DNA of 64,000 bases from Tautonia plasticadhaerens (GTDB taxonomy: Bacteria; Planctomycetota; Planctomycetia; Isosphaerales; Isosphaeraceae), in contig NZ_CP036426.1 of the NCBI RefSeq assembly GCF_007752535.1, forward strand, positions 744,001 through 808,000. Reading direction: 5' to 3'. The translations under genes and the position numbers were made by a program. Of this stretch, positions 6,657 through 18,010 are shown piece after piece. Position 1 is the stretch's first letter; each line of letters opens with the position of its first letter. A model generated the notes under the pieces. It did not search any database. It was not told the origin of the DNA and saw only the letters and a program-made list of their open reading frames with translations.

Positions 6657-7219
6657 GATGCCTCCCGTCATTCCCGTCAGATGATTGATGTCGCCCGACC
6701 ACGCCCCCCGTCCCCATCCCTGCCGGACGCGCAGAGGGCGAGCGCTCCGCGGCGAGCTTTAGCCAACTGGATTTCGGCAGGCCGGGACCGGCCGGTCGAC
6801 GCTATTCCCGATCGCGGGGGGGACTCGCCCGTGAATCCCCGTAAACCCCCCAAAGTCCGTCGACTTGCCATTCGACCTCGACCTACGGAAACGCTCATCC
6901 CCCGCGGATCGCGGGCCGATACCCAGGATGCGACCCCGAGAGCGGGACGGCGCGGCCGAAGGACACGGGCCAGGCCGTCGCCCGTTCCGTACCCCCGACT
7001 TCGGGATCCCGGGTGGGAGACGCCCAGGGCCCCGAGATGACCCCATGGCCGAGGCGGGCGCGATGCCCGGAGGGCCGTGGAAGGCCTCGCAAGGCCGAGG
7101 CCGAGGTCGATCCCGACTGCGACGGTCGGAGCCCGGGGGTCGGGGAATTGCTCACCGTACCCGATCGAGACGTCGGTCGGAACGATCGACCCGTATCTCC
7201 TTGCCTCGAGGATATCGCG
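6657..7219. other. Intergenic region between divergent genes
   Basis: This stretch separates the minus-strand WPGHC protein gene from the plus-strand repeat protein gene and must hold both promoters. A 12 bp perfect palindrome GACCGGCCGGTC lies at 6786-6797. I could not place a convincing -35/-10 pair. Open frames here give arginine-rich translations and look spurious. Confidence 0.4.
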
Positions 7220-8143
7220 ATGACCAAGGCTTTGGTCCTGACACTTGCCCTGAGCAACGTGGGGACCGGGCACGGCGACCACCACCAGGAAATGGTGCAC
7301 GCCAGTGCTCAAGTCACCCCGACCGCCCAGGCCCCCGCCAAGGTGATGCCGGCCCCGCAGGCCCCGGCCAAGGTCGCCCCGGCGCCCCAGGCCCCGGCCA
7401 AGGTGCTGCCGGCCCCGCAGGCCCCGGCCAAGGTCGCTCCCGCGCCCCAGGCCCCGGCCAAGGTGCTGCCGGCCCCGCAGGCCCCGGTGAAGGTGATGCC
7501 GGCCCCGAAGGCCCCGGCCAAGGTCGCCCCGGCGCCCCAGGCCCCGGCCAAGGTGCTGCCGGCCCCGCAGGCCCCGGTGAAGGTGATGCCGGCCCCGAAG
7601 GCCCCGGCCAAGGTCGCCCCGGCGCCCCAGGCCCCGGCCAAGGTGCTGCCGGCCCCGCAGGCCCCGGCCAAGGTCGCCCCGGCGCCCCAGGCCCCGGCCA
7701 AGGTGCTGCCGGCCCCGCAGGCCCCGGTGAAGGTCGCCCCGGCGCCCCAGGCCCCGGCCAAGGTCGCCCCGGCGCCCCAGGCCCCGGCCAAGGTGCTGCC
7801 GGCCCCGCAGGCCCCGGCCAAGGTCGCCCCGGCGCCCCAGGCCCCGGCCAAGGTGCTGCCGGCCCCGCAGGCCCCGGTGAAGGTGATGCCGGCCCCGCAG
7901 GCCCCGGTGAAGGTGCTGCCGGCCCCGCAGGCCCCGGCCAAGGTCGCCCCGGCGCCCCAGGCCCCGGCCAAGGTGCTGCCGGCCCCGCAGGCCCCGGTTA
8001 AGGTCGCTCCCGCGCCCCAGACCCCGGTGAAGGTGATGCCGGCCCCGCAGGCCCCGGTTAAGGTCGCCCCGGCCCCGCAGGCCCCGGTGAAGGCGGCCCC
8101 TCAGGTGGCTCCCGCCCCGCAGGCCCCCGGCAAGGGGTGGTGA
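7220..8143 (+). CDS. Exported low-complexity protein with 26 ten-residue repeats
   Basis: The protein has 307 residues. A short hydrophobic N-terminus (MTKALVLTLALSNVG) is followed by a His-rich stretch (GHGDHHQEMVHAS). Next come 26 consecutive decapeptides of the form (A/L/M)PAPQAP(A/V)KV (residues 33-292). The tail is APQVAPAPQAPGKGW. Each repeat has one Lys and four Pro, so an extended polyproline-like, basic chain is expected. Such chains occur as cell-wall or nucleic-acid-binding spacers. GAGG at 7208-7211 precedes the ATG. The gene is monocistronic and ends at a strong terminator. No catalytic domain is visible and the function is unknown. Confidence 0.7.
   Translation: MTKALVLTLALSNVGTGHGDHHQEMVHASAQVTPTAQAPAKVMPAPQAPAKVAPAPQAPAKVLPAPQAPAKVAPAPQAPAKVLPAPQAPVKVMPAPKAPAKVAPAPQAPAKVLPAPQAPVKVMPAPKAPAKVAPAPQAPAKVLPAPQAPAKVAPAPQAPAKVLPAPQAPVKVAPAPQAPAKVAPAPQAPAKVLPAPQAPAKVAPAPQAPAKVLPAPQAPVKVMPAPQAPVKVLPAPQAPAKVAPAPQAPAKVLPAPQAPVKVAPAPQTPVKVMPAPQAPVKVAPAPQAPVKAAPQVAPAPQAPGKGW
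7316..8095 (+). repeat. 26 tandem 30-bp coding repeats
   Basis: The repeat unit is exactly 30 bp (10 codons), so copies recur in register over 780 bp. Variation is concentrated at the first codon (GCC/CTG/ATG), at the Ala/Val codon near the end and at one Gln-to-Lys change. Pairs and triplets of units recur as blocks, which suggests expansion by unequal exchange. The number of copies is likely to vary between strains and is easily mis-assembled. Confidence 0.9.
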
Positions 8144-8439: not shown

Positions 8440-9408
8440 TCAATGGCTTCCATTGATGCGACGAGGTCGCCCGGGTGTCGAGGCCTCCGGCGGGTCCGGG
8501 ACGGGGGAGAGTCGGCCGAGGTAGGGCCCGACGTTGGGGATGGCCGGCCCGAGGATGACCGTCAGCCCGCTCCGCTTGGCGAGCCCCTGATAGTTCACCA
8601 CGCTCCGGCCCCCGACGAACACCGGCGCCCCCCGGAGCCCCGAGAGCTCCCCGAACCGCTTCCGGACGTTCCGGGAGAGCGTCATCGAGATCCCCACCGC
8701 GACGGGCTCCCAGTCGTGGATCGCCTGCTGGATCTCCCGGACCGCCAGGTCGGCGCCGAGGTAGATGGCCCGCCAGCCCGAGAGTTCCAGGGCCAGGCTC
8801 AGCATCAGCGGCCCCCCCTCGTGGCGATCCCCCTGGACGCTCAGGGCCAGGATGCTGCCCCTCGGCCTCGTATTGGATCCCTGGGCCTCGTCGACTAGGC
8901 CCGCCAGCTTGCGGAGCAGGTACATGCTGGCCAGGCGTTCCTTGGCCATCGAGCACTCGCCCCGGAAGAGCCGCTCCCCCGACTCGGTCAAGGAGGGGGA
9001 GATGACCCGGTCGACGATCTCCGGCAAGCCGAGGCCGGATGAGGCCCGGCGGTAAATCTCCTCGGCGGCGATGCAGTCGGCCCGCCCCAGGGCCGAGATC
9101 AGGCGATCCACCGGGTCGTCTCGCCCCGGGCCGTCCGGCATGCCGACCTCGGCGACGAGCCGGCCGTCCCGGGCGTCGGCGATGACCTTGCAGATCGCCT
9201 CCCCGGACCGGGAACGGCGGGCGATCTCGCGGATTAGGCGAACCTGCTCGGCCTGATAGCGCCGATGGCCGGCTTGGGTCCGGGAGGGGTCGGGGAAACC
9301 GTATCGCCGCTCCCAGACGCGCAGGGTGTGGCAGCTGACCCCGGTGAGCTTGGAGACCGCGGCGATCGAGTAGCGGGGAACGGAGAACAGTCCGGCGTCC
9401 ACGATCAC
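8440..9408 (-). CDS. MerR-family regulator with B12-binding-like domain (CarH/LitR type)
   Basis: This is a 322-residue transcription regulator. The MerR winged helix is at 11-80 (YSIAAVSKLTGVSCHTLRVWERRYGFPDPSRTQAGHRRY). A four-helix cap follows (about 98-180), then a Rossmann-like cobalamin-binding domain (about 183-300). The cobalamin-ligand motif DxHxxG is intact as D194-R-H196-E-G-G199. The W-x9-EH motif of light-sensing CarH proteins is replaced by L147-x9-E157-R158. B12 binding is therefore plausible, but CarH-type photochemistry is doubtful. The start is a GTG at 9406-9408; the GTG two codons later is better spaced from GGGGAGG and is an alternative. A 20 bp inverted repeat upstream (9619-9638) is a candidate operator. 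Confidence 0.85.
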   Translation of the reverse strand: MIVDAGLFSVPRYSIAAVSKLTGVSCHTLRVWERRYGFPDPSRTQAGHRRYQAEQVRLIREIARRSRSGEAICKVIADARDGRLVAEVGMPDGPGRDDPVDRLISALGRADCIAAEEIYRRASSGLGLPEIVDRVISPSLTESGERLFRGECSMAKERLASMYLLRKLAGLVDEAQGSNTRPRGSILALSVQGDRHEGGPLMLSLALELSGWRAIYLGADLAVREIQQAIHDWEPVAVGISMTLSRNVRKRFGELSGLRGAPVFVGGRSVVNYQGLAKRSGLTVILGPAIPNVGPYLGRLSPVPDPPEASTPGRPRRINGSH

Positions 9409-9759
9409 TCGCCTCCCCGGCTTCGGTGAAGTGGCCGGGGGCGGGGGCCGCTCGACGACCGGCCGAGTGGCCGACAGCCCCCGGACGAAGCCGTGTCAGA
9501 GCGGCGCGGCGCGCCTCGGGACGGCGACGTCACGTCCGGGAAATCGACGTTTCCATGATCTTCCCCCCTCCGGATGGCCAATGCAAGTCAACTTCCCACC
9601 CCCGGGGAATGCCCGGCGATGTTGCCGGGATGCAACATGGCGGCGGCATGGCCTAGGCTCCCTGAGGGGGAGGGCGGCTCACAGCCCCGGGCGATGGGAC
9701 CTTTCGCCCGGTCCGGGGGGGAACCCCGGACCAACTCGACTCGGAGAGAGGATCACGCG
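9409..9759. promoter_or_regulatory. Divergent intergenic region with MerR-type inverted repeat
   Basis: This 351 bp region lies between the minus-strand MerR/B12 gene and the plus-strand matrixin gene. It contains a perfect inverted repeat with 7 bp arms, ATGTTGC-N6-GCAACAT (9619-9638), of the size typical of MerR operators. TAGGCT at 9653-9658 could be a -10 for the plus-strand gene, 14 bp beyond the repeat. GGAGAGAGG at 9742-9750 is the ribosome binding site for the matrixin gene. Control of either gene through the repeat is inference. Confidence 0.45.
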
Positions 9760-11259
9760 ATGTTCGGCGACAGCACTCAAGGGGCTCGCGAGGGCCGTCG
9801 ACGGGACGCCAACGGCCTGAGGCCGACGCTCGAGGGGCTGGAACAGCGCCTGCTGCTCTACTCGACGCTCGGCGGAGAATGGGCCTACGGGAGCCGGATC
9901 ACCTACAGCTTCCCGCCCGACGGCGCGAACGTCGGCGGCGTGCCGAACGCCCTCTCCCAGGCGATGGCCGGCCGGGGGATCACGGAGGCGCAGTGGAAGG
10001 CCGAGCTGCGGCGGGCCTTCGCGGTCTGGCAGTCGGCCGCCAACATCAACCTCGCCGAGGTGCCCGACTCGGGCGCCTCGCTCGGGGTGCCGGGCAACCA
10101 GCAGAACGACTCGAGGTTCGGGGACATCCGGGTCTTCGCCACGCCGCAGCAGCCGGGGGTGCTGGGCTACGCCTTCGCGCCGCCACCGATCAACGGCGGG
10201 ACCAGGGCCGGGGACGTGGTGCTCAACAGCTCGGCGGCCTGGAACGTCGGCTCGACGTTCGACCTGCAGACGGTCGCCATCCACGAGGTCGGGCACGCGC
10301 TGGGCCTGGGCCATTCGAGCATCAGCACCGCGGCGATGTACGACGTCTATAACGGCCTGAAGCAGGGGATCATCAGCGACGACATCAACGGGCTGCGCTC
10401 CCTGTACGGGGCCCGGCAGCAGGACTGGCTCGACCAGTACCGCAACAACAAGGATCCCTGGAATGCCATCAACGTCTCCGGCTATCTCGACGCCTCCGGC
10501 CGGGTGACGCTGCCGAGCCTGGACGTCACCTCGAACCAGGACGACGACTGGTTCTACGTCAAGGCGCCGAGCAACGCCAGCGGGACGATGGTGATCACGA
10601 TGCAGGCCAAGGATCTCAGCTCGCTGAGCCCCCGGTTCGAGGTCTACAACTCGGCCCTGCAACTGGCCGGCTGGACCGTCTCGCCGAACCCGAGCACCAC
10701 CTACGGGTCGACCATCTCGCTGCAGTTCACGGGGGTGCCGGCCGGCACAGGGGTGTACATCAACGCCCGGGGCTGGAACGCCCAGAATAGCGGCGTCAAC
10801 GGCATCGGCGCCTACGCCCTCCGGGTGGACTTCAGCGGCGGGCCGGTCCCGCCGGCGATCGTCTCGCCGCCGGGCACGACCGTGCCCGAGAAGCCCGACC
10901 AGGGCGGGGGCTCCATCGCTCTGGCCGCCCCGGATCCCGCGAAGGGGGGCGGATCGTGGCGGAAGGACGCCACGCCGGCTCCCTCACCGATCGGATTGTC
11001 GAAGGGTACCCGGTTCTCGACCTGGGAAACACCGGACAACAGCGACCCCTCGTACGGGACCGTCGCGTTCCGATCGCCCGACCGCCCCGGGCTCGGGCGC
11101 GTCTTCGAGCCGACGACCGCGTTCGCGGCCCCCTCCCCGTGGTTCGTGCAGGCCATCGACGCCGCGTTGGAGGAGGTGGAGGGGGACACGCCCCCGTCGA
11201 AGAACGCCCGATTGGCCAGTTGGATCGACGAGGTCATGACGGTCGAACTCCCGACCTGA
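9760..11259 (+). CDS. Matrixin-type (M10) zinc metalloprotease with LExLExR N-terminal motif
   Basis: This 499-residue predicted secreted zinc protease shows the metzincin zinc site as HEVGHALGLGH (ligands H175, H179, H185; catalytic E176). A Met-turn candidate follows at M193 (AAMYDV). The N-terminus has no ordinary signal peptide. It carries GLRPTLEGLEQRLLLYS (19-35), matching the LEPR-XLL-like motif of planctomycete surface proteins. A beta-rich region at about 240-400 may be a pre-peptidase-type or jelly-roll domain. The last 100 residues are Pro/Gly-rich and probably disordered. The ATG is chosen for its GGAGAGAGG ribosome site. The next gene carries the same N-terminal motif and lies 183 bp downstream on the same strand. 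Confidence 0.85.
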   Translation: MFGDSTQGAREGRRRDANGLRPTLEGLEQRLLLYSTLGGEWAYGSRITYSFPPDGANVGGVPNALSQAMAGRGITEAQWKAELRRAFAVWQSAANINLAEVPDSGASLGVPGNQQNDSRFGDIRVFATPQQPGVLGYAFAPPPINGGTRAGDVVLNSSAAWNVGSTFDLQTVAIHEVGHALGLGHSSISTAAMYDVYNGLKQGIISDDINGLRSLYGARQQDWLDQYRNNKDPWNAINVSGYLDASGRVTLPSLDVTSNQDDDWFYVKAPSNASGTMVITMQAKDLSSLSPRFEVYNSALQLAGWTVSPNPSTTYGSTISLQFTGVPAGTGVYINARGWNAQNSGVNGIGAYALRVDFSGGPVPPAIVSPPGTTVPEKPDQGGGSIALAAPDPAKGGGSWRKDATPAPSPIGLSKGTRFSTWETPDNSDPSYGTVAFRSPDRPGLGRVFEPTTAFAAPSPWFVQAIDAALEEVEGDTPPSKNARLASWIDEVMTVELPT

Positions 11260-11442
11260 TCTCGGGCCCGCCCCCGAGAGGGCAGCCCGGGTGTCGGGCT
11301 CCCGGTCGGACGCGTGGTTTCTCGGCGACACCAGGACGGCGTGGACCTAGGCTTCCGAAGGCGACCCATGCGACCGGCAGCCGAACGCTTCGACGTGCTC
11401 CCGGATCGAGTCGTGCGGATTCGGGCGAGAAGGGCATTGTTC

Positions 11443-14421
11443 ATGAAGACCAGGATCCCCGAGCGACGAACCCTGCTCCGGGCGATTCGGCCCCGGGTCG
11501 AGCCGCTGGAATGCCGGATCGCCCGATCGGGCGATCCGCTCACGTTCCCGATTCCCCCTGACTTCTCCCCGTTGAGGATGCTCTTCGGGGACACGCTGCC
11601 GACGCCGCCGGACGACTCGCTCTCGCTGCCGACGCCGCCGGACGACTTCCCCACCCTGCCGACGCCGCCGGACGACTCGCCGCCCGAACCCTCGGATCCG
11701 ATCGACTTCCCCGGGCCGCCCGACCCGATCGACCCGGATTCTCCGGACGGGGGCGGAGTCGACCCGCCGACCCCGTTCCCCCCCCCGGTCGACCCGCAGC
11801 CCGGAGACGGCCCCTCGCCGACCGACCCCGGTCAGGGGCCGACGCCCCCGTCGCAACCGATCCCCAGGCCCCCCGAGCCGCCGACCTTGCCGGTCGCCGC
11901 CGTCCGTCCGGCCGACGGGGACGTGCTGGAGGCCGGGACGGTCGGGGAGATCTCGGTGACGATGGCCGAGGCCATCACCCGGGAGGGGCTCAACCCGGGC
12001 GATTTCCTGCTGGAGCGGATCCCCACCTCCGGGAAGCCCGAGCGGATCTTCGGCCTCCAACGCCCGCCCGGCTGGCGCCTGGAGGCGGGGGGGACACGCC
12101 TGGTCCTGCTGACCGGCCAGCCCCTGGCCGAGGGCCGCTATCGCCTGACCCTGATTCGGGGGAGCCGGTTCACCGGCGTCGGGGGCCGGACGATCGACTC
12201 GGTCCCGGTCGACACGGTCCTCTCGGAATTCCGGGTCGCGGCCCCGTCGAAGCCGCCGGCCCCGGTCGTCGAGGTCCCCGATCGCCCCCCGTCCGCCCCG
12301 GCCAAGCCGGTGCCCCGGCCGACCCCCGGGACTCCCTCACCGGGACGCCCCGAGCCGGCCCCGACCGGGGTGACGCTCGACCGTGCCGTCGCCATCGGGA
12401 CGATCGGGCCCGAGGTCCGGGACGTCTCCGGGACGCTCGGCCCGTCCGGCGCCCCGTCCTCGGTCCGGCTCTACCGGATCGAGCTGGCGCCGGGCCACTT
12501 CTGGAGGCTCGGCCTGGAGGTCTCGGGGGACCACGCCGGGAGCCCGATGCCGACCCGGATCTCGCTGTTCGACGCCGAAGGCCGGCTGATCGACTCCGGC
12601 GCCATGACCCTGGACGGCTCGCCGGACGACCCCTTCCTCTTCGCGGGCCTGGAGCCGGGGACGTATTTCGTCGGCGTCTCCTCGGTCGATGACGAACCGG
12701 GGAACGGCGGCTATGACCCGGTGACCGGGGCCGTCGGGGTGAACCTGAGGTCCCAGCCCGGAGGCTCGTTCTCGCTCTCCCTGGTGGCCGACCCCGCCGA
12801 TTCCCCGACCCGGGTCGTCGGCCTGGATCTCGACCGGCTCGACCCGGCCGACCCGGTGCCGACGGGTTTCACGATCCGCTTCGACGGCCCGGTCCGGGCC
12901 TGGGGGCCGGGCGGGGCGACCGGATCGGAGTCCTCGGGCCCGCCTGTCGAGGTCGTCGACCAGGCGGGGCGAGTCTGGCCCGCCACGGCGGTCTCCTACG
13001 ACGCCCAGACCGGCGCGCTCTCGATGCTGTTCCGGGACCGGCTCCCCAGGGGCCGCTACGAGGTCCGGCTGCCGGCCTCGGGCGGCCTCGTCGACCTGGC
13101 CGGACTCTCGCCGGTGGCCGACGGGATGCCCGGCCGCGTGCTCGGCCGATTCGAGGTCACCACGGTGCCGACCGCTCGAGACCCGAACGACCTCGGCGCC
13201 CTCCTGCCCGGCCGTGCCCCTGCGGGAGAGGCGGTCGAACTGCGACTCGCCCCGGGGGCGTCGGAGGCGGTCCGGTTCGTCGTCACCTACGAGACGCAAT
13301 ACGAGCTGCGGCTGCTCGACCCGTCCGGCGGGGTTTCGATCGAGCTGGTCGGCCCCGACGGGCCGATCCTCCTGGATCCCCTGCCGACGGGCGTGAACGG
13401 GACCCAGGTCCAGCTCCGCCCGGGGGTCTATTCCGTCCGCCTCGTCAACCTGGGGTCGGGGCCCGCCGGGGTCTCCCTCCGGATCCGGGCGCTGGATCCC
13501 CCGAGGGATTCGGTGCCGCTGAACGGGGTCGGCCAGGGGCCGGCGCTCGGGATGAGGCTGGTCTCCCCTTCGGCGGGCCCTCGTCCCTCGAATCCGATCG
13601 AGGTCGGCGGCTCGACCACGAATCCGGGCCCCCCGGCGACCTTCCCGGACGCGCCGGGGAGCGCGGCCGGGCCGATCGGCCCGGGGGTAGATACGGGGTC
13701 GGAGGCGATCGCGATGGGAGAAGCAGGGGCCTCGATCCCCGGCGGGCCCACGCTGTCGCTCGACGTCGAGTTGCTCGGCCGGCCGACATTGCAGTCGTTG
13801 AGGGTGGCCGCGGTGAGCCCCGACGGCGCCGAGGGCCTGGCGGCGACCGCCTCGATTGGGGGGGGGCCTGAGTTGTTCCGCTCCTTCGCGATCGGCCCCG
13901 GGCAGTCTGTCGGCCTCCCCGGGGTCGACCACGGCGGGTGGGGCGGGCCGGCTTCCGGCCCGACGGCCTGGGCCGGGGCCGAACCCGGCGAGGGCGGTGC
14001 GGTCGTGCTCGGGCCTCAAGAGTCCCGGGCCCCCGGCGGTGAGTCGGCGGTCGACCTGCTCGATGCCGTGCTCGCCCTGCTGCCCCCGGCCGGGGGCCCG
14101 ATCGGGGACGACCTGGCGATGCTCGACCTGGGAGTCGTCCCCGGGCCATCGGGCGGGGTCGACGAGGGGGCTCGGGAGCCCGATCCTCCCGGGGACCGGG
14201 AACCGTTGCCGATCTCGGTGGTCCAGGCCCTCAGCCTGGGAGTGGTCGTCACCTGGACCGCCAGGCGATGGTCGAGGCGCCGGATCCGGGCCGGTCGACG
14301 GACGGGGCGGCCGCCGGGCGTCGGGGGCCCCGATTCGTCGATCGCGGCGGCGAGGGACGGCGCCCTCCTCGACGGCCTGATCCGACGACACCCGGGATCG
14401 TGCGCCGGTCGCCTCAGCTGA
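11443..14421 (+). CDS. Large surface protein with LEPR-like motif, PPC-like domain and C-terminal membrane helix
   Basis: The protein has 992 residues. The N-terminus has RPRVEPLECRIARS (19-32), the same motif class as the upstream metalloprotease. A Pro/Asp-rich stretch (about 45-145) contains three LPTPPDD decapeptides. Residues 145-270 look like a bacterial Ig-like fold (VRPADGDVLEAGTVGEISVTM). Residues 305-450 resemble a pre-peptidase C-terminal (PPC) beta-sandwich (YRIELAPGHFWRLGLEVSG; FAGLEPGTYFVGVSS). A second sandwich lies at about 585-690. Near the C-terminus is one possible membrane helix (ISVVQALSLGVVVTWTA) followed by a strongly basic tail, which suggests membrane anchoring. No catalytic site was seen. 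Its stop codon overlaps that of the convergent gene. Confidence 0.75.
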   Translation: MKTRIPERRTLLRAIRPRVEPLECRIARSGDPLTFPIPPDFSPLRMLFGDTLPTPPDDSLSLPTPPDDFPTLPTPPDDSPPEPSDPIDFPGPPDPIDPDSPDGGGVDPPTPFPPPVDPQPGDGPSPTDPGQGPTPPSQPIPRPPEPPTLPVAAVRPADGDVLEAGTVGEISVTMAEAITREGLNPGDFLLERIPTSGKPERIFGLQRPPGWRLEAGGTRLVLLTGQPLAEGRYRLTLIRGSRFTGVGGRTIDSVPVDTVLSEFRVAAPSKPPAPVVEVPDRPPSAPAKPVPRPTPGTPSPGRPEPAPTGVTLDRAVAIGTIGPEVRDVSGTLGPSGAPSSVRLYRIELAPGHFWRLGLEVSGDHAGSPMPTRISLFDAEGRLIDSGAMTLDGSPDDPFLFAGLEPGTYFVGVSSVDDEPGNGGYDPVTGAVGVNLRSQPGGSFSLSLVADPADSPTRVVGLDLDRLDPADPVPTGFTIRFDGPVRAWGPGGATGSESSGPPVEVVDQAGRVWPATAVSYDAQTGALSMLFRDRLPRGRYEVRLPASGGLVDLAGLSPVADGMPGRVLGRFEVTTVPTARDPNDLGALLPGRAPAGEAVELRLAPGASEAVRFVVTYETQYELRLLDPSGGVSIELVGPDGPILLDPLPTGVNGTQVQLRPGVYSVRLVNLGSGPAGVSLRIRALDPPRDSVPLNGVGQGPALGMRLVSPSAGPRPSNPIEVGGSTTNPGPPATFPDAPGSAAGPIGPGVDTGSEAIAMGEAGASIPGGPTLSLDVELLGRPTLQSLRVAAVSPDGAEGLAATASIGGGPELFRSFAIGPGQSVGLPGVDHGGWGGPASGPTAWAGAEPGEGGAVVLGPQESRAPGGESAVDLLDAVLALLPPAGGPIGDDLAMLDLGVVPGPSGGVDEGAREPDPPGDREPLPISVVQALSLGVVVTWTARRWSRRRIRAGRRTGRPPGVGGPDSSIAAARDGALLDGLIRRHPGSCAGRLS
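11596..11685 (+). repeat. Three tandem 30-bp coding repeats (LPTPPDD)
   Basis: Units start at 11596, 11626 and 11656. Each encodes LPTPPDD plus three variable residues. They lie in the disordered Pro/Asp-rich linker of the surface protein. Confidence 0.8.
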
Positions 14422-15073
14422 GGGCCGGGACCCGGTACGCCCGCCGGCGGTCGAGGCAGCCGACCTGGACCGCCGAGCCGGCGACCCGGAGGCAATAGGC
14501 CGCCCGCCGTGCCAGCCACTCGGGGCGCCCGGACCGCTCGGCCAGGTCCCGGGTCGTGAACGGGTCGGGCAGGTCGTCGGGCAGCAGGGCCCGGAGGTCG
14601 GCCGGCACCCGGATCGAGGTCTCCGAGACGACCCGTCGCAGCCGACGGTCGGCGACCACATATCCCCGGCGTCCCCGGGCCGGGATCCGCTCCTCGTCGA
14701 CCTCGACGGCGAGCACGACGACCTCCAGGCTCGGATGTGAGATCAGGCCGGCGAGCCCGACGAGGTGCTCGAACGCGTCGAACGGCCCTCCCCGCCTCGG
14801 GCTGGTCCGGGAGGACCGGGCCGGGCCCCCCGGGGTTTCGAGCCGGAGGATCCGGCGGGCGGAGATCACCGGCTGGGCGACGAGGACCTGATTCCCCGGC
14901 AGCAGCCGCCCGAGCTTCGGCCGGAGGGCCGACGTCGGGCCGCACTGCACCTCGACGAGCCGGCCGTCCGGGGCGATCGCGTCGACCCGGTCCCGGCCCA
15001 GTCGCACCTCGACCCAGGAGCCGTCCCCCCCGGCGAATCGACGCTTCAACTCCCGGTGGAGGCTGGATTCCAT
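14414..15073 (-). CDS. Hypothetical protein, possible PD-(D/E)XK nuclease-like fold
   Basis: This 219-residue protein starts MESSLHRELKRRF. It has a stretch VEVRLGRDRVDAIAPDGRLVEVQ, which looks like the D...(E)xK core of PD-(D/E)XK nucleases (D near 29, E near 39). The expected Lys is Gln (EVQ), a substitution known in some nuclease branches. The middle (70-150) includes FEHLVGLAGLISHPSLEVVVLAVEVDEER. The C-terminal 60 residues (FTTRDLAERSGRPEWLARRAAYCLR) resemble a winged helix. It follows pyrE with only 8 bp between stop and start, so the two are probably co-transcribed. The nuclease assignment is inference from short motifs. Confidence 0.65.
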   Translation of the reverse strand: MESSLHRELKRRFAGGDGSWVEVRLGRDRVDAIAPDGRLVEVQCGPTSALRPKLGRLLPGNQVLVAQPVISARRILRLETPGGPARSSRTSPRRGGPFDAFEHLVGLAGLISHPSLEVVVLAVEVDEERIPARGRRGYVVADRRLRRVVSETSIRVPADLRALLPDDLPDPFTTRDLAERSGRPEWLARRAAYCLRVAGSAVQVGCLDRRRAYRVPALS

Positions 15074-15081
15074 CGCCCGGC

Positions 15082-15657
15082 TCAGCTCGAGGGGGGGAGC
15101 GGCTCCACGCCCAAATCCCGGATCGTCAGCAGCGCCCGGAACTCCAGGCCGGCGTCGGCGAAGGCGTCGGCAGCCCCCTCGAGGCGGTCGAGCATGACGA
15201 TGACCCGGGCGACCCGACATCCCATCGCCCGGGCCGCCTCGACGGCCTTGAGCGACGAGCCCCCGGTGGTCGCGACGTCGTCGAGGATCGCCACGGTCGA
15301 GCCCGGCTCCAGCGGGCCCTCGACCAGGTTCCCCGTCCCATGCCCCTTGGCTTCCTTCCGGACGAGGAACCCGCGCAGGTCGGGACGCCTCCCCGACCCG
15401 GCGACCGCCAGGGCGGCCCCCACGATGGGGTCGGCCCCCATCGTCAGGCCGCCGACCGCCGCCACCTCCGGCACCTCGTCGAGCAGCTCCAGCATCCCGG
15501 AGCCGACGAGTGCCGCCCCCTCGGCCGAGAGCGTGACCCGGCGACCGTCCACGTAATAATGCGAACTCCGCCCGCTGGCCAGCGTGAAGGTCCCCACCTT
15601 CAGGGCATCCCGCCGCAGCAGCCCGATCAGCCGATCCCGATCCCAGCCGACATCCAT
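15082..15657 (-). CDS. pyrE: Orotate phosphoribosyltransferase
   Basis: It converts orotate and PRPP to orotidine 5'-phosphate in de novo pyrimidine synthesis, in the cytoplasm. The 191-residue length is normal for the family. The PRPP-binding motif is VAILDDVATTGGSS (122-135). The catalytic flexible loop is RKEAKGHGTGN (100-110), with the usual Lys and His residues. The N-terminal FTLASGRSSHYYVDGRR matches the orotate-site strand. The ATG is placed for MDVGWDRDRL. The gene precedes the possible nuclease gene by 8 bp on the same strand. No other pyrimidine gene is in the window. Confidence 0.95.
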   Translation of the reverse strand: MDVGWDRDRLIGLLRRDALKVGTFTLASGRSSHYYVDGRRVTLSAEGAALVGSGMLELLDEVPEVAAVGGLTMGADPIVGAALAVAGSGRRPDLRGFLVRKEAKGHGTGNLVEGPLEPGSTVAILDDVATTGGSSLKAVEAARAMGCRVARVIVMLDRLEGAADAFADAGLEFRALLTIRDLGVEPLPPSS

Positions 15658-16017
15658 CCCATCGACCTCCGATCCCAGGACGAGCCGACCCGGCGGCCCT
15701 CACCCAGCCCGGGCCCAAGCATAGCCCGATCGAGGCCCCGCGACCAGCCGTCCGATCCGGCCGGGTTGTCCCATTCTCCCGGGATCGAGCGGTCGTCCCG
15801 GCCGGATCGAGGCAGGGGAGGGCGGCTGCGGAATTGACCATCGTGGCACGGTCTCGCCCAGCCCGATTGGCCGGGTCGATTCGATCAGATAATCGTTCAA
15901 ATCGTTCACGGCTCGAATCGCGGGTTGTGGCCCGAGGGGGTGCGTTTTTCGCGAATTTCCCGTATGTGTCGGGAAAAATTCTTTTGGCCCTTGCCGCCGC
16001 TTCGGGATCGGTTTAGG
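15658..16017. promoter_or_regulatory. Divergent intergenic region with duplicated direct-repeat element and promoter
   Basis: This 360 bp region separates pyrE (minus) from the MerR/B12-like gene (plus). AATCGTTCAAATCGTTCA at 15891-15908 contains ATCGTTCA twice with a 9 bp period. A near-identical copy (17 of 18) occurs at 16022-16039. TTTCCCG-N7-CGGGAAA (15956-15976) is a 7 bp inverted repeat between them. The region is locally less GC-rich than its neighbours. It is probably an operator/promoter zone for the regulator gene; that is inference. Confidence 0.5.
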
Positions 16018-16019
16018 AT
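15991..16019 (+). promoter_or_regulatory. Predicted sigma-70 promoter of the regulator-sigma factor operon
   Basis: The -35 is TTGCCG (15991-15996) and the -10 is TAGGAT (16014-16019), with an ideal 17 bp spacer. Transcription would start near 16026, inside the second direct-repeat element (16022-16039). A protein bound there could block initiation. Confidence 0.45.
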
Positions 16020-16998
16020 GAAATCGTTCAAAACGTTCATTCGAAACCGTGCAACTCGGTTGGTGCAAGTGGTCGACACGCTCCTCAAGACCCGACAGTT
16101 GGCGGGACTGCTGAACGTAAGTGTCAGCACGATCAAACGCTGGGTTGACCTGGGGGAACTCCCGGCGACGAGGACGGTGGGAGGACACCGCCTGGTGCCG
16201 TTGTCGGGGGCCTTGCGATTCGCGGCCGAGCGGGGCCTGCCGACGGACCGCCTGGAGCGGTTCCTTGCCGACTCGGCGTCGGCGACGGCGACCCCCGGGG
16301 AGGGGGCGGGTCCGGTGACCTGGGAGGACCTGGCCACTGCGTTGAAGCGGGGGCGATCGGCCGCGGCACGGAATTTGATTCTAAGGGCATACGCCTCGAG
16401 TCACGATGCTGCCGCGCTGGCCGACGATCTGATCCGCCCCTCGATGGAGTCGATCGGCCACGACTGGGAACGTCGATCGCTGGACATTTACCAGGAACAC
16501 CGCGCCTCCCGAATCGTCGAGGGGGCGTTGATGGAATTGTTGCGCTCCCGGACGCCGCCCCCGGTCGGGTCCCCCGTGGCGATCGGGGCGTCGCCCCAGG
16601 GGGATCTCTACACGCTGCCGGGGCTGCTCGCGGAGCTGACCCTCCGGGAGCTCGGGTGGGACGCCGTCAACCTCGGCCCGAACCTGCCGATGGCCTCGCT
16701 CGCGAGGGCGATCCGGGTGCAGCAGCCGAAGCTCGTCTGGCTGTCGGTGTGCCACCTGGGCGACGAGTCCCTTTTCATCCAGGAATACAAGTCATTCTAT
16801 GCCTCGGCTTCCAGGACGGGGGCCGCGGTGGTCCTGGGCGGGTCTGCATTGACCCCGGCTCTCCGGGCCTCGCTGGTCGCCGCGAGCTTCGGCGACCGGA
16901 TGGCCCACCTGCGCGAGTTCGCCCGCCGGATCAGCCCGACGGACGCCGGATCGCCTGATACTTCATCGATGGAACGCCCCGGGACGATCGAGCCTTGA
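16018..16998 (+). CDS. MerR-family regulator with B12-binding-like domain lacking the ligand His
   Basis: As drawn the protein has 326 residues. Because the predicted -10 overlaps this ATG, the true start may be one of the TTG/GTG codons at 16060, 16063 or 16069 (VVDTLLKTRQLAGLLNVS). The helix-turn-helix reads TRQLAGLLNVSVSTIKRWVDLGELPATRTVGGHR. The four-helix bundle carries a perfect CarH-type motif W150-x9-E160-H161 (HDWERRSLDIYQEH). In the following Rossmann-like domain the DxHxxG motif is replaced by D196-L-Y198-T-L-P201, so the usual cobalt-ligating His is absent. The fold is clear, but cobalamin binding is questionable. The sigma factor gene starts 25 bp downstream, so the pair is likely an operon. 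Confidence 0.8.
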   Translation: MKSFKTFIRNRATRLVQVVDTLLKTRQLAGLLNVSVSTIKRWVDLGELPATRTVGGHRLVPLSGALRFAAERGLPTDRLERFLADSASATATPGEGAGPVTWEDLATALKRGRSAAARNLILRAYASSHDAAALADDLIRPSMESIGHDWERRSLDIYQEHRASRIVEGALMELLRSRTPPPVGSPVAIGASPQGDLYTLPGLLAELTLRELGWDAVNLGPNLPMASLARAIRVQQPKLVWLSVCHLGDESLFIQEYKSFYASASRTGAAVVLGGSALTPALRASLVAASFGDRMAHLREFARRISPTDAGSPDTSSMERPGTIEP

Positions 16999-17023: not shown

Positions 17024-18010
17024 ATGCGACCTGCACGACAGATCGGCGAGACGGACGGATTCGCGGGCCTCGACGACGCCGCCACCCGTGTCCTGGCACC
17101 GGCCGAGGAGCGGGCCCTGCTCCGGGAGCTGGGCGAGTGCAAGGCGAAACTGGCCCGGGCCATGGCCTCCGTCCCCGGCGCCGCGCCCCCCCAGGGCGAC
17201 CCGTCCGATCCGCAGGCCATGGCGGCCTACATCTCCGCGACCTGCTCGGGGGACGCTCGCCTGGAGACTCGGCTTGGCGCCGTCTTCCAGCAGTACAAGG
17301 ACCTCCGCACGAGGCTGGCGCTCGCCAACCTCCGGCTGGTGGCCCACGTCGCCAAGCGGTTCCGCGACCGGGGGGTCTCCTACGGCGACCTAATGCAGGA
17401 GGGGTTTTGTGGCCTGATCGAGGCGATCGACCGCTTCAACCTCACGCATGAGACCAAGCTGGCGACTTACGCCACGTGGTGGATCCGCCAGGCGATGCAG
17501 CGGGCCGTCGCGTCGGGCGCCTACCCGGTGAAGCTCAGCCCCCGGCATCTCCGCCAGCTCGCCCAAAACCAGGAGGAGCTGGGGGGCCGGGACTCGGACG
17601 ACTCCGAGGCCCCCCCGGCCCGCTCCCCCGGCGGCCACGGCCCCTCGAACGAGATGATCCGCCGGATCCATGCCGCCACCCGGCCTCCCGTCTCGCTCGA
17701 CGCGACGATCGATACCGATCGCAGCTTCACCCTGCTCCAGACGATGAGCGACCCGGACGCCGACCGGACCGACGACGTCGACACCGGCGAGACGATCACG
17801 CTGCTGCTCGACGCGCTTCGGCCCCGTGAGCAGCAGGTGCTCGCCCTGCGATACGGCCTGGGAGGGGCGCAGCGGCTCTCGCTCAGCCAGGTGGGCAAGG
17901 TGCTGCAGGTCTCCAAGGAACGGGTCCGCCAGATTCAGGATCGCGCCCTGGAGAAGCTCCGCGCCGTCGCCGCCGAGCACAACCTGACGGAGGCCCTGCC
18001 GATCACCTGA
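17024..18010 (+). CDS. Sigma-70 family RNA polymerase sigma factor (group 2/3-like)
   Basis: This 328-residue sigma factor directs core RNA polymerase to a promoter set. Region 2 is at about 97-165. It has the core-binding helix (LANLRLVAHVAKRF), YGDLMQEGFCGLIEAIDRF and the -10 recognition helix TYATWWIRQAMQRAV. Region 4 is near the C-terminus (about 265-320). It has LRPREQQVLALRYGL and the -35 recognition helix LSLSQVGKVLQVSKERVRQIQDRALEKLR. Region 1.1 is absent and region 3 is short, so this is an alternative rather than the housekeeping factor. A GAGGGGA site precedes the ATG. It follows the MerR/B12-like gene by 25 bp, similar to the LitR-LitS arrangement known in actinomycetes. Confidence 0.9.
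   Translation: MRPARQIGETDGFAGLDDAATRVLAPAEERALLRELGECKAKLARAMASVPGAAPPQGDPSDPQAMAAYISATCSGDARLETRLGAVFQQYKDLRTRLALANLRLVAHVAKRFRDRGVSYGDLMQEGFCGLIEAIDRFNLTHETKLATYATWWIRQAMQRAVASGAYPVKLSPRHLRQLAQNQEELGGRDSDDSEAPPARSPGGHGPSNEMIRRIHAATRPPVSLDATIDTDRSFTLLQTMSDPDADRTDDVDTGETITLLLDALRPREQQVLALRYGLGGAQRLSLSQVGKVLQVSKERVRQIQDRALEKLRAVAAEHNLTEALPIT

Follow-up and report, generated by a model that had tools for sequence, protein, structure and literature searches.

Tyrosine at the place of the axial histidine in a planctomycete clade of predicted B12-type MerR repressors linked to a sigma-70 gene and a tandem 9-bp operator

The closest solved relatives of the two regulators described here are CtMerR and TtCarH. 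CtMerR of Chloracidobacterium thermophilum (8JBS/8JBT) is a light-responsive AdoCbl tetramer with the signature GxxW, EH, GxxH and GxxxP, in which the Trp and the Glu contact the adenosyl group, a proline comes from the neighbouring subunit and His204 is the cobalt ligand (PMC11796333). In TtCarH, the CarH protein of T. thermophilus and a class I CarH/LitR protein, the H177A replacement abolishes AdoCbl binding and tetramer formation (PMC4557120). CarA of Myxococcus xanthus is B12-independent after losing the Wx9EH motif (PMC9304148). Light-induced targets of class II LitR include FolE and photolyase (PMC9758184), and BldC binds 9-bp repeats of the form AATTXXXXC head-to-tail (PMC5859096).

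We analysed a window of 64,000 nucleotides from Tautonia plasticadhaerens (contig NZ_CP036426.1, positions 744,001 to 808,000), which contains genes for protein A (8440..9408, minus strand) and protein B (ORF 16018..16998, plus strand). A sequence-only reading, which gave no strand for A, had proposed that both are MerR/B12-fold regulators, and this was borne out by Pfam, by the nearest solved structures and by fold matches of the AlphaFold models of the two proteins (mean pLDDT 81.7 and 88.6). Protein A joins a DNA-binding domain (MerR_1/MerR) to a B12-binding domain in a CarH/CarA-like arrangement; its closest solved sequence is TtCarH (110 bits), which its AlphaFold model also matches by fold. 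Protein B matches HTH_17/MerR and B12-binding_2, with a weaker match to B12-binding, and consists of a BldC/HTH_17-type winged helix, a four-helix cap and a Rossmann B12 fold. Its nearest solved relative is CtMerR (8jbs, full-length alignment, 117 bits), its AlphaFold model superposes on 8jbs/8jbt with a TM of 0.83-0.85 on target, and its DNA-binding domain matches the BldC structures 6ama/6amk. In both proteins only about 20 residues follow the final helix of the B12 fold, which leaves no space for a biliverdin-binding domain beside the CBD such as photocobilins have. The residues had also been read correctly: A has L147-x9-E157-R158 (GERLFRGECSMAKERLAS) with D194, H196 and G199 within GDRHEGG, and B has W150-x9-E160-H161 (GHDWERRSLDIYQEHRAS) followed by D196-x-Y198-x-x-P201 in the ligand region GDLYTLPG. 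Each protein thus differs from CarH in another half, as had been noted; the further claim that the two losses are complementary did not stand, the losses having two unrelated histories.

Judged from its sequence, A is an independent CarH relative in which the adenosyl pocket has decayed in the window's genus: the Trp is replaced by Leu, the His by Arg, and the GxxxP proline is gone as well (LGADLA), with DxHxxG kept. In an alignment of 17 A sequences, made up of orthologues from close relatives, the Trp position holds Leu only in the four genomes of the window's genus, Arg in one other and Trp elsewhere, and conservation of Leu147 is thus confined to the genus. The second residue of the EH pair varies between genera, some having His and others Arg, and DxHxxG is kept in all sequences except L043. 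Most sister genera have an A ortholog with W-x9-E[H/R] and DxHxxG. Like CarA, A is a B12-fold MerR protein that has lost Wx9EH, and by this analogy it is likely to be B12-independent; the suggestion that one of the two proteins has lost cobalamin is therefore fair for A. Unlike CarA, A has no CarS or carotenoid neighbours that we could see, and is adjoined by a divergent gene for an M10 (matrixin) metallopeptidase (9574..11259, plus strand; Pfam and synteny). This divergent pair is kept in most A orthologous loci of the family. Perhaps, as a guess, the metallopeptidase is a direct target of A; by eye, no shared repeat that could be an operator was seen in the regions upstream of A.

That A and B form a co-evolved pair with split functions would fit their distance of about 8 kb in the window's genus, yet it is highly improbable given their distribution. 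Tyr-type B proteins coexist with an A ortholog having both motifs in four genomes (B/A pairs L007/L035 in G027, L005/L037 in G020, L014/L038 in G021 and L010/L045 in G005). Clear A orthologues were found only within the window's family, whereas B is phylum-wide and was found in many planctomycete genomes where no close A ortholog turned up. The two losses also differ in age, the His-to-Tyr change being placed by the tree described below at the root of a clade that spans the phylum and the Trp-to-Leu change of A being seen only in the window's genus. Because the losses are unlinked in history, the complementarity of A and B does not denote a functional pairing.

The B family was gathered by scanning public genomes and, within the phylum, 294 genomes, and nearly all titled loci from the public-genome scan were planctomycete records. 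It comprised 140 non-redundant members and later 175 rows, the added rows not being de-duplicated, and the search patterns favour close relatives, one of them covering the stretch just before the ligand with the ligand itself excluded. Across the 175 rows, read with this redundancy and bias, G147, E160, P224, G274 and G275 are conserved in 100%, W150 in 99.4% and D196 in 94.9%; the 99-100% conservation of W150, E160, P224 and G274-G275 is more than chance would give. S243 is present in 125 of 138 relatives, and the last residue of EH is His or Arg across the clade. With the same architecture and full-length similarity, B keeps GxxW, EH and GxxxP of CtMerR together with the GG motif, which belongs to the nucleotide-tail pocket. 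It departs from CtMerR at the cobalt ligand, where CtMerR has His204 and B has Tyr198. An alignment error at this motif was ruled out, since B aligns over its full length with CtMerR and Y198 stands opposite the ligand His. No other conserved His in place of the ligand was found among B relatives. Conservation of Tyr198, a check suggested by the sequence-only reading, was confirmed in the close-relative B family (Tyr in 28 of 30, Ser in two), and among the 140 non-redundant members the position holds Tyr (118), His (7), Ser (7), Ala (2), Phe (2), Thr (2), Gly (1) or Asp (1). The His at W+1, from which TtCarH in the light takes its second ligand, is rare in the clade (8 of 138 B relatives).

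With the motif columns left out of the alignment, a tree made by a quick method with SH-aLRT only and with several open forks separates the planctomycete B clade from CtMerR and TtCarH, both of His type, and His appears within this clade only in a few scattered rows. At least five changes between His and non-His and at least 17 between Tyr and non-Tyr are needed on it. The simplest reading would be a single early His-to-Tyr change, after which His was regained a few times and the residue was lost on several later occasions. Two sequences fall outside the general pattern. L154 (G058, 1702882-1703637) is a second, tandem B-like gene with degenerate motifs, on a long branch and without the W and the E. 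L214 (G200) is a planctomycete sequence with the canonical W-x9-EH and His that lies outside the Tyr clade and is possibly a true CarH-type paralogue.

The effect of H177A in TtCarH implies that the loss of the His in B could mean loss of AdoCbl, and this is the main counter-argument to the reading that we prefer, in which B remains an AdoCbl-dependent repressor. B would then be ligand-free, as CarA is, or controlled by a partner, its CBD serving only to oligomerise and the partner bringing the light signal; class II LitR with its LOV protein is a precedent (PMC9758184), and the variation of the ligand position across B relatives, which tolerates Ser, Ala, Thr, Phe and Gly too, counts in the same direction and against the preferred reading. 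We nevertheless consider such a loss rather unlikely. The CarA-type loss is the loss of exactly the Wx9EH motif (PMC9304148), which B keeps, and the almost invariant W150, E160 and P224, which accompany the GG motif, in CtMerR are adenosyl contacts or lie close to that group. No LOV gene was recognised adjoining B in an unsystematic look at the neighbourhoods. Full loss of AdoCbl is less likely because the adenosyl pocket is conserved phylum-wide and the family operator stands by photolyase genes.

Tyrosine is a common ligand of haem iron. On this ground B might bind a different tetrapyrrole or a ligand that bears a nucleotide (haem, biliverdin or MeCbl), with Tyr198 as metal ligand or contact, and related CBD proteins are reported to combine cobalamin and bilin (PMC10979010; PMC11796333). 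This is improbable in view of the conserved W and E, which are adenosyl contacts in CtMerR (PMC11796333), and of the scattered His in the clade, which suggests that the site is still used for cobalt. For B the evidence favours a light response that has been kept while the cobalamin site was altered, and the suggestion of a lost cobalamin therefore does not carry over from A to B. Tyr198 in the place of the proximal His would either bind cobalt weakly or switchably, or fill the site of a five-coordinate form. As some members carry Ser, Ala or Phe at the site, a strong protein ligand would not be needed, and a five-coordinate or water-ligated cobalt form is possible. Genes for methylmalonyl-CoA mutase, for methionine synthase and for a PduO-type adenosyltransferase are present in the host genome, and from the mutase and the adenosyltransferase AdoCbl is likely to be present in the host.

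A gene for a sigma-70 family sigma factor (regions 2 and 4; 17024..18010, plus strand; Pfam and synteny) starts 25 bp after B and probably shares an operon with it. LitR of Streptomyces also adjoins a sigma-factor gene. A phosphoribosyltransferase-like gene (15082..15657, minus strand), just under the Pfam cut-off and by synteny a conserved neighbour across the B family, is divergent from B, and the order phosphoribosyltransferase-like gene, B, sigma factor, XerC-like gene is kept in most family loci. In the 80 wider homologous loci the sigma factor is the second most widespread gene cluster and is adjacent to B in 65, divergent in 41 and directly downstream in 21; fasciclin, DUF1365, SDR and TIGR01777/SRPBCC-type proteins also recur.

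A probable promoter of B and the sigma factor (15991..16019, plus strand; TTGCCG - 17 bp - TAGGAT) was read by eye, a consensus promoter scan having found none for B at its threshold, and its TA...T box is conserved in the upstream regions of orthologues that were compared. Directly 3' of the -10-like box lies the predicted operator 1 (16021..16039, plus strand), which consists of the tandem 9-bp direct repeats AAATCGTTC AAAACGTTC A, and the predicted operator 2 (15892..15908, plus strand; ATCGTTCAAATCGTTCA) is located between B and the divergent phosphoribosyltransferase-like gene. Because ATG 16018 overlaps the promoter/operator element, B probably starts at GTG 16063 or 16069; its orthologues begin about 16-19 residues after this ATG. 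The element AAATCGTTCAAAACGTTCA recurs upstream of B genes, likewise directly 3' of the conserved TA...T box, and defines the predicted operator as a tandem of 9-bp direct repeats AAAWCGTYC. Its 15-bp core CGTYCAANNCGTYCA is found exactly in 52 of 134 B upstream regions and with at most one mismatch in 84, compared to 0 and 0.2, respectively, in mononucleotide shuffles of the same regions, and the best sites are nearly all in the orientation of B. Exact CGTYCAAAWCGTYCA occurs at only two sites in the 9.4-Mb host genome, both at B. A looser pattern has two further exact matches, each within a long frame (judged by eye, one DUF1501-like and one maltooligosyltrehalose-synthase-like), and these were set aside as looking like chance.

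The 9-bp period fits BldC and not CarH, whose tandem repeats are of 11 bp (nnnnTnnACAn). The sequence of the B domain and the spacing of the repeats would fit BldC-type direct repeats, built of an AT-rich 4-mer, four further positions and a C, and the winged helix of B matches that of BldC, which differs from B in having no sensor domain. With TtCarH, B shares a MerR-like and an AdoCbl-type domain, a direct-repeat operator at the promoter and a predicted role as repressor; apart from the repeats, B differs from it in having neither the axial His nor, in most of the clade, the W+1 His, and in an output that is a sigma-70 gene and not carotenoid genes. For CtMerR, the cited sections of PMC11796333 mention neither an operator nor a link to a sigma factor.

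The exact operator pattern was scanned against 249 genomes of the class and gave 150 sites (summed by hand), compared to 28 for the same pattern reversed. Within 1.5 kb of 108 fetched sites, partly hand-chosen, 74 loci hold genes for a sigma factor (58), B (49), fasciclin (16), a photolyase-type protein (4) or a TIGR01777-like protein (3), whereas none of the 28 reversed-pattern control loci holds any such gene. Most operator sites without these neighbours are inside long open frames, as expected of chance matches. The operator-linked B proteins have Tyr in 35 of 37 cases. A Pfam-verified photolyase gene stands beside the operator in four loci (L265, L299, L300 and L351). In L265 the operator, which is not near B, has a sigma gene on one side and a divergent photolyase gene on the other, and L299 and L300 share the arrangement B - operator - sigma - photolyase. 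Photolyase calls made by phmmer for L303 and L304 were dropped for want of Pfam support. In L320 (352-3823) an exact operator is followed at about 10 bp by the start of a gene for GTP cyclohydrolase I, verified by Pfam, and DUF1365 was identified by Pfam at L325, L326 and L353. The gene before GTP cyclohydrolase I in L320 encodes an amine-oxidase domain with a weak photolyase-like N-terminal domain. In many planctomycetes the operator is also found just upstream of fasciclin-domain genes, often away from B (L266 at 1501, L267 at 1501, L276, L316, L319, L347 and others).

Photolyase and FolE are thus part of the candidate light regulon of B as they are of class II LitR (PplR/PmlR2), which differs in that nothing but the four-helix part remains of its B12 domain and, for PmlR2, in using a LOV partner. 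Sensing of the AdoCbl level instead of light by B would agree with the conserved pocket and with a host that uses AdoCbl; it is nevertheless very unlikely, as the genes beside which operators stand (photolyase, GTP cyclohydrolase I, DUF1365, TIGR01777-like) fit light and not B12 metabolism. In the host genome (G000) neither a FAD_binding_7 photolyase nor an exact operator outside B's promoter was found, and the light link for the host B is therefore drawn from its relatives.

Taken together, these comparisons make it most likely that B represses its own gene, responds to light and acts through the sigma factor. In the dark, B would hold AdoCbl base-off, oligomerise, bind head-to-tail on the repeats and block transcription of the B-sigma operon; in the light, the Co-C bond would break, B would leave the DNA and the sigma factor would be expressed, in other lineages alongside photolyase, FolE, fasciclin and DUF1365-type genes. 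We consider it probable, with some reserve, that B is a CtMerR/CarH-like repressor from a Tyr-for-His clade which works by this dark binding of AdoCbl and release in the light, control of the B-sigma operon included. More tentatively, planctomycetes may have AdoCbl photoreceptors without an axial His, in which Tyr is a cobalt ligand or an exchangeable ligand of the light state and which follow a photochemistry or signalling route other than that of CarH.

The component parts are of known kinds, and the new side is the ligand swap at the scale of a phylum, the operator and the sigma/photolyase regulon. In the open-access literature searched, which leaves most subscription journals outside, no paper joining planctomycetes with CarH, cobalamin and photoreceptors was found, nor a description of such a swap, operator or linked regulon. 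B12 photoreceptors are generally taken to need the axial His as a key residue. The published search signature includes it (GxxH; PMC11796333), and the Tyr clade would therefore be missed by that signature. If B is light-responsive, a phylum with little-known light biology gains a sensor, an operator, a sigma factor and a partial regulon, and the clade is a natural test of the role of the axial ligand in B12 photochemistry.

Elsewhere in the window, an open frame at 7013-8143 (plus strand) consists of many near-identical PAPQAP(A/V)KV repeats.
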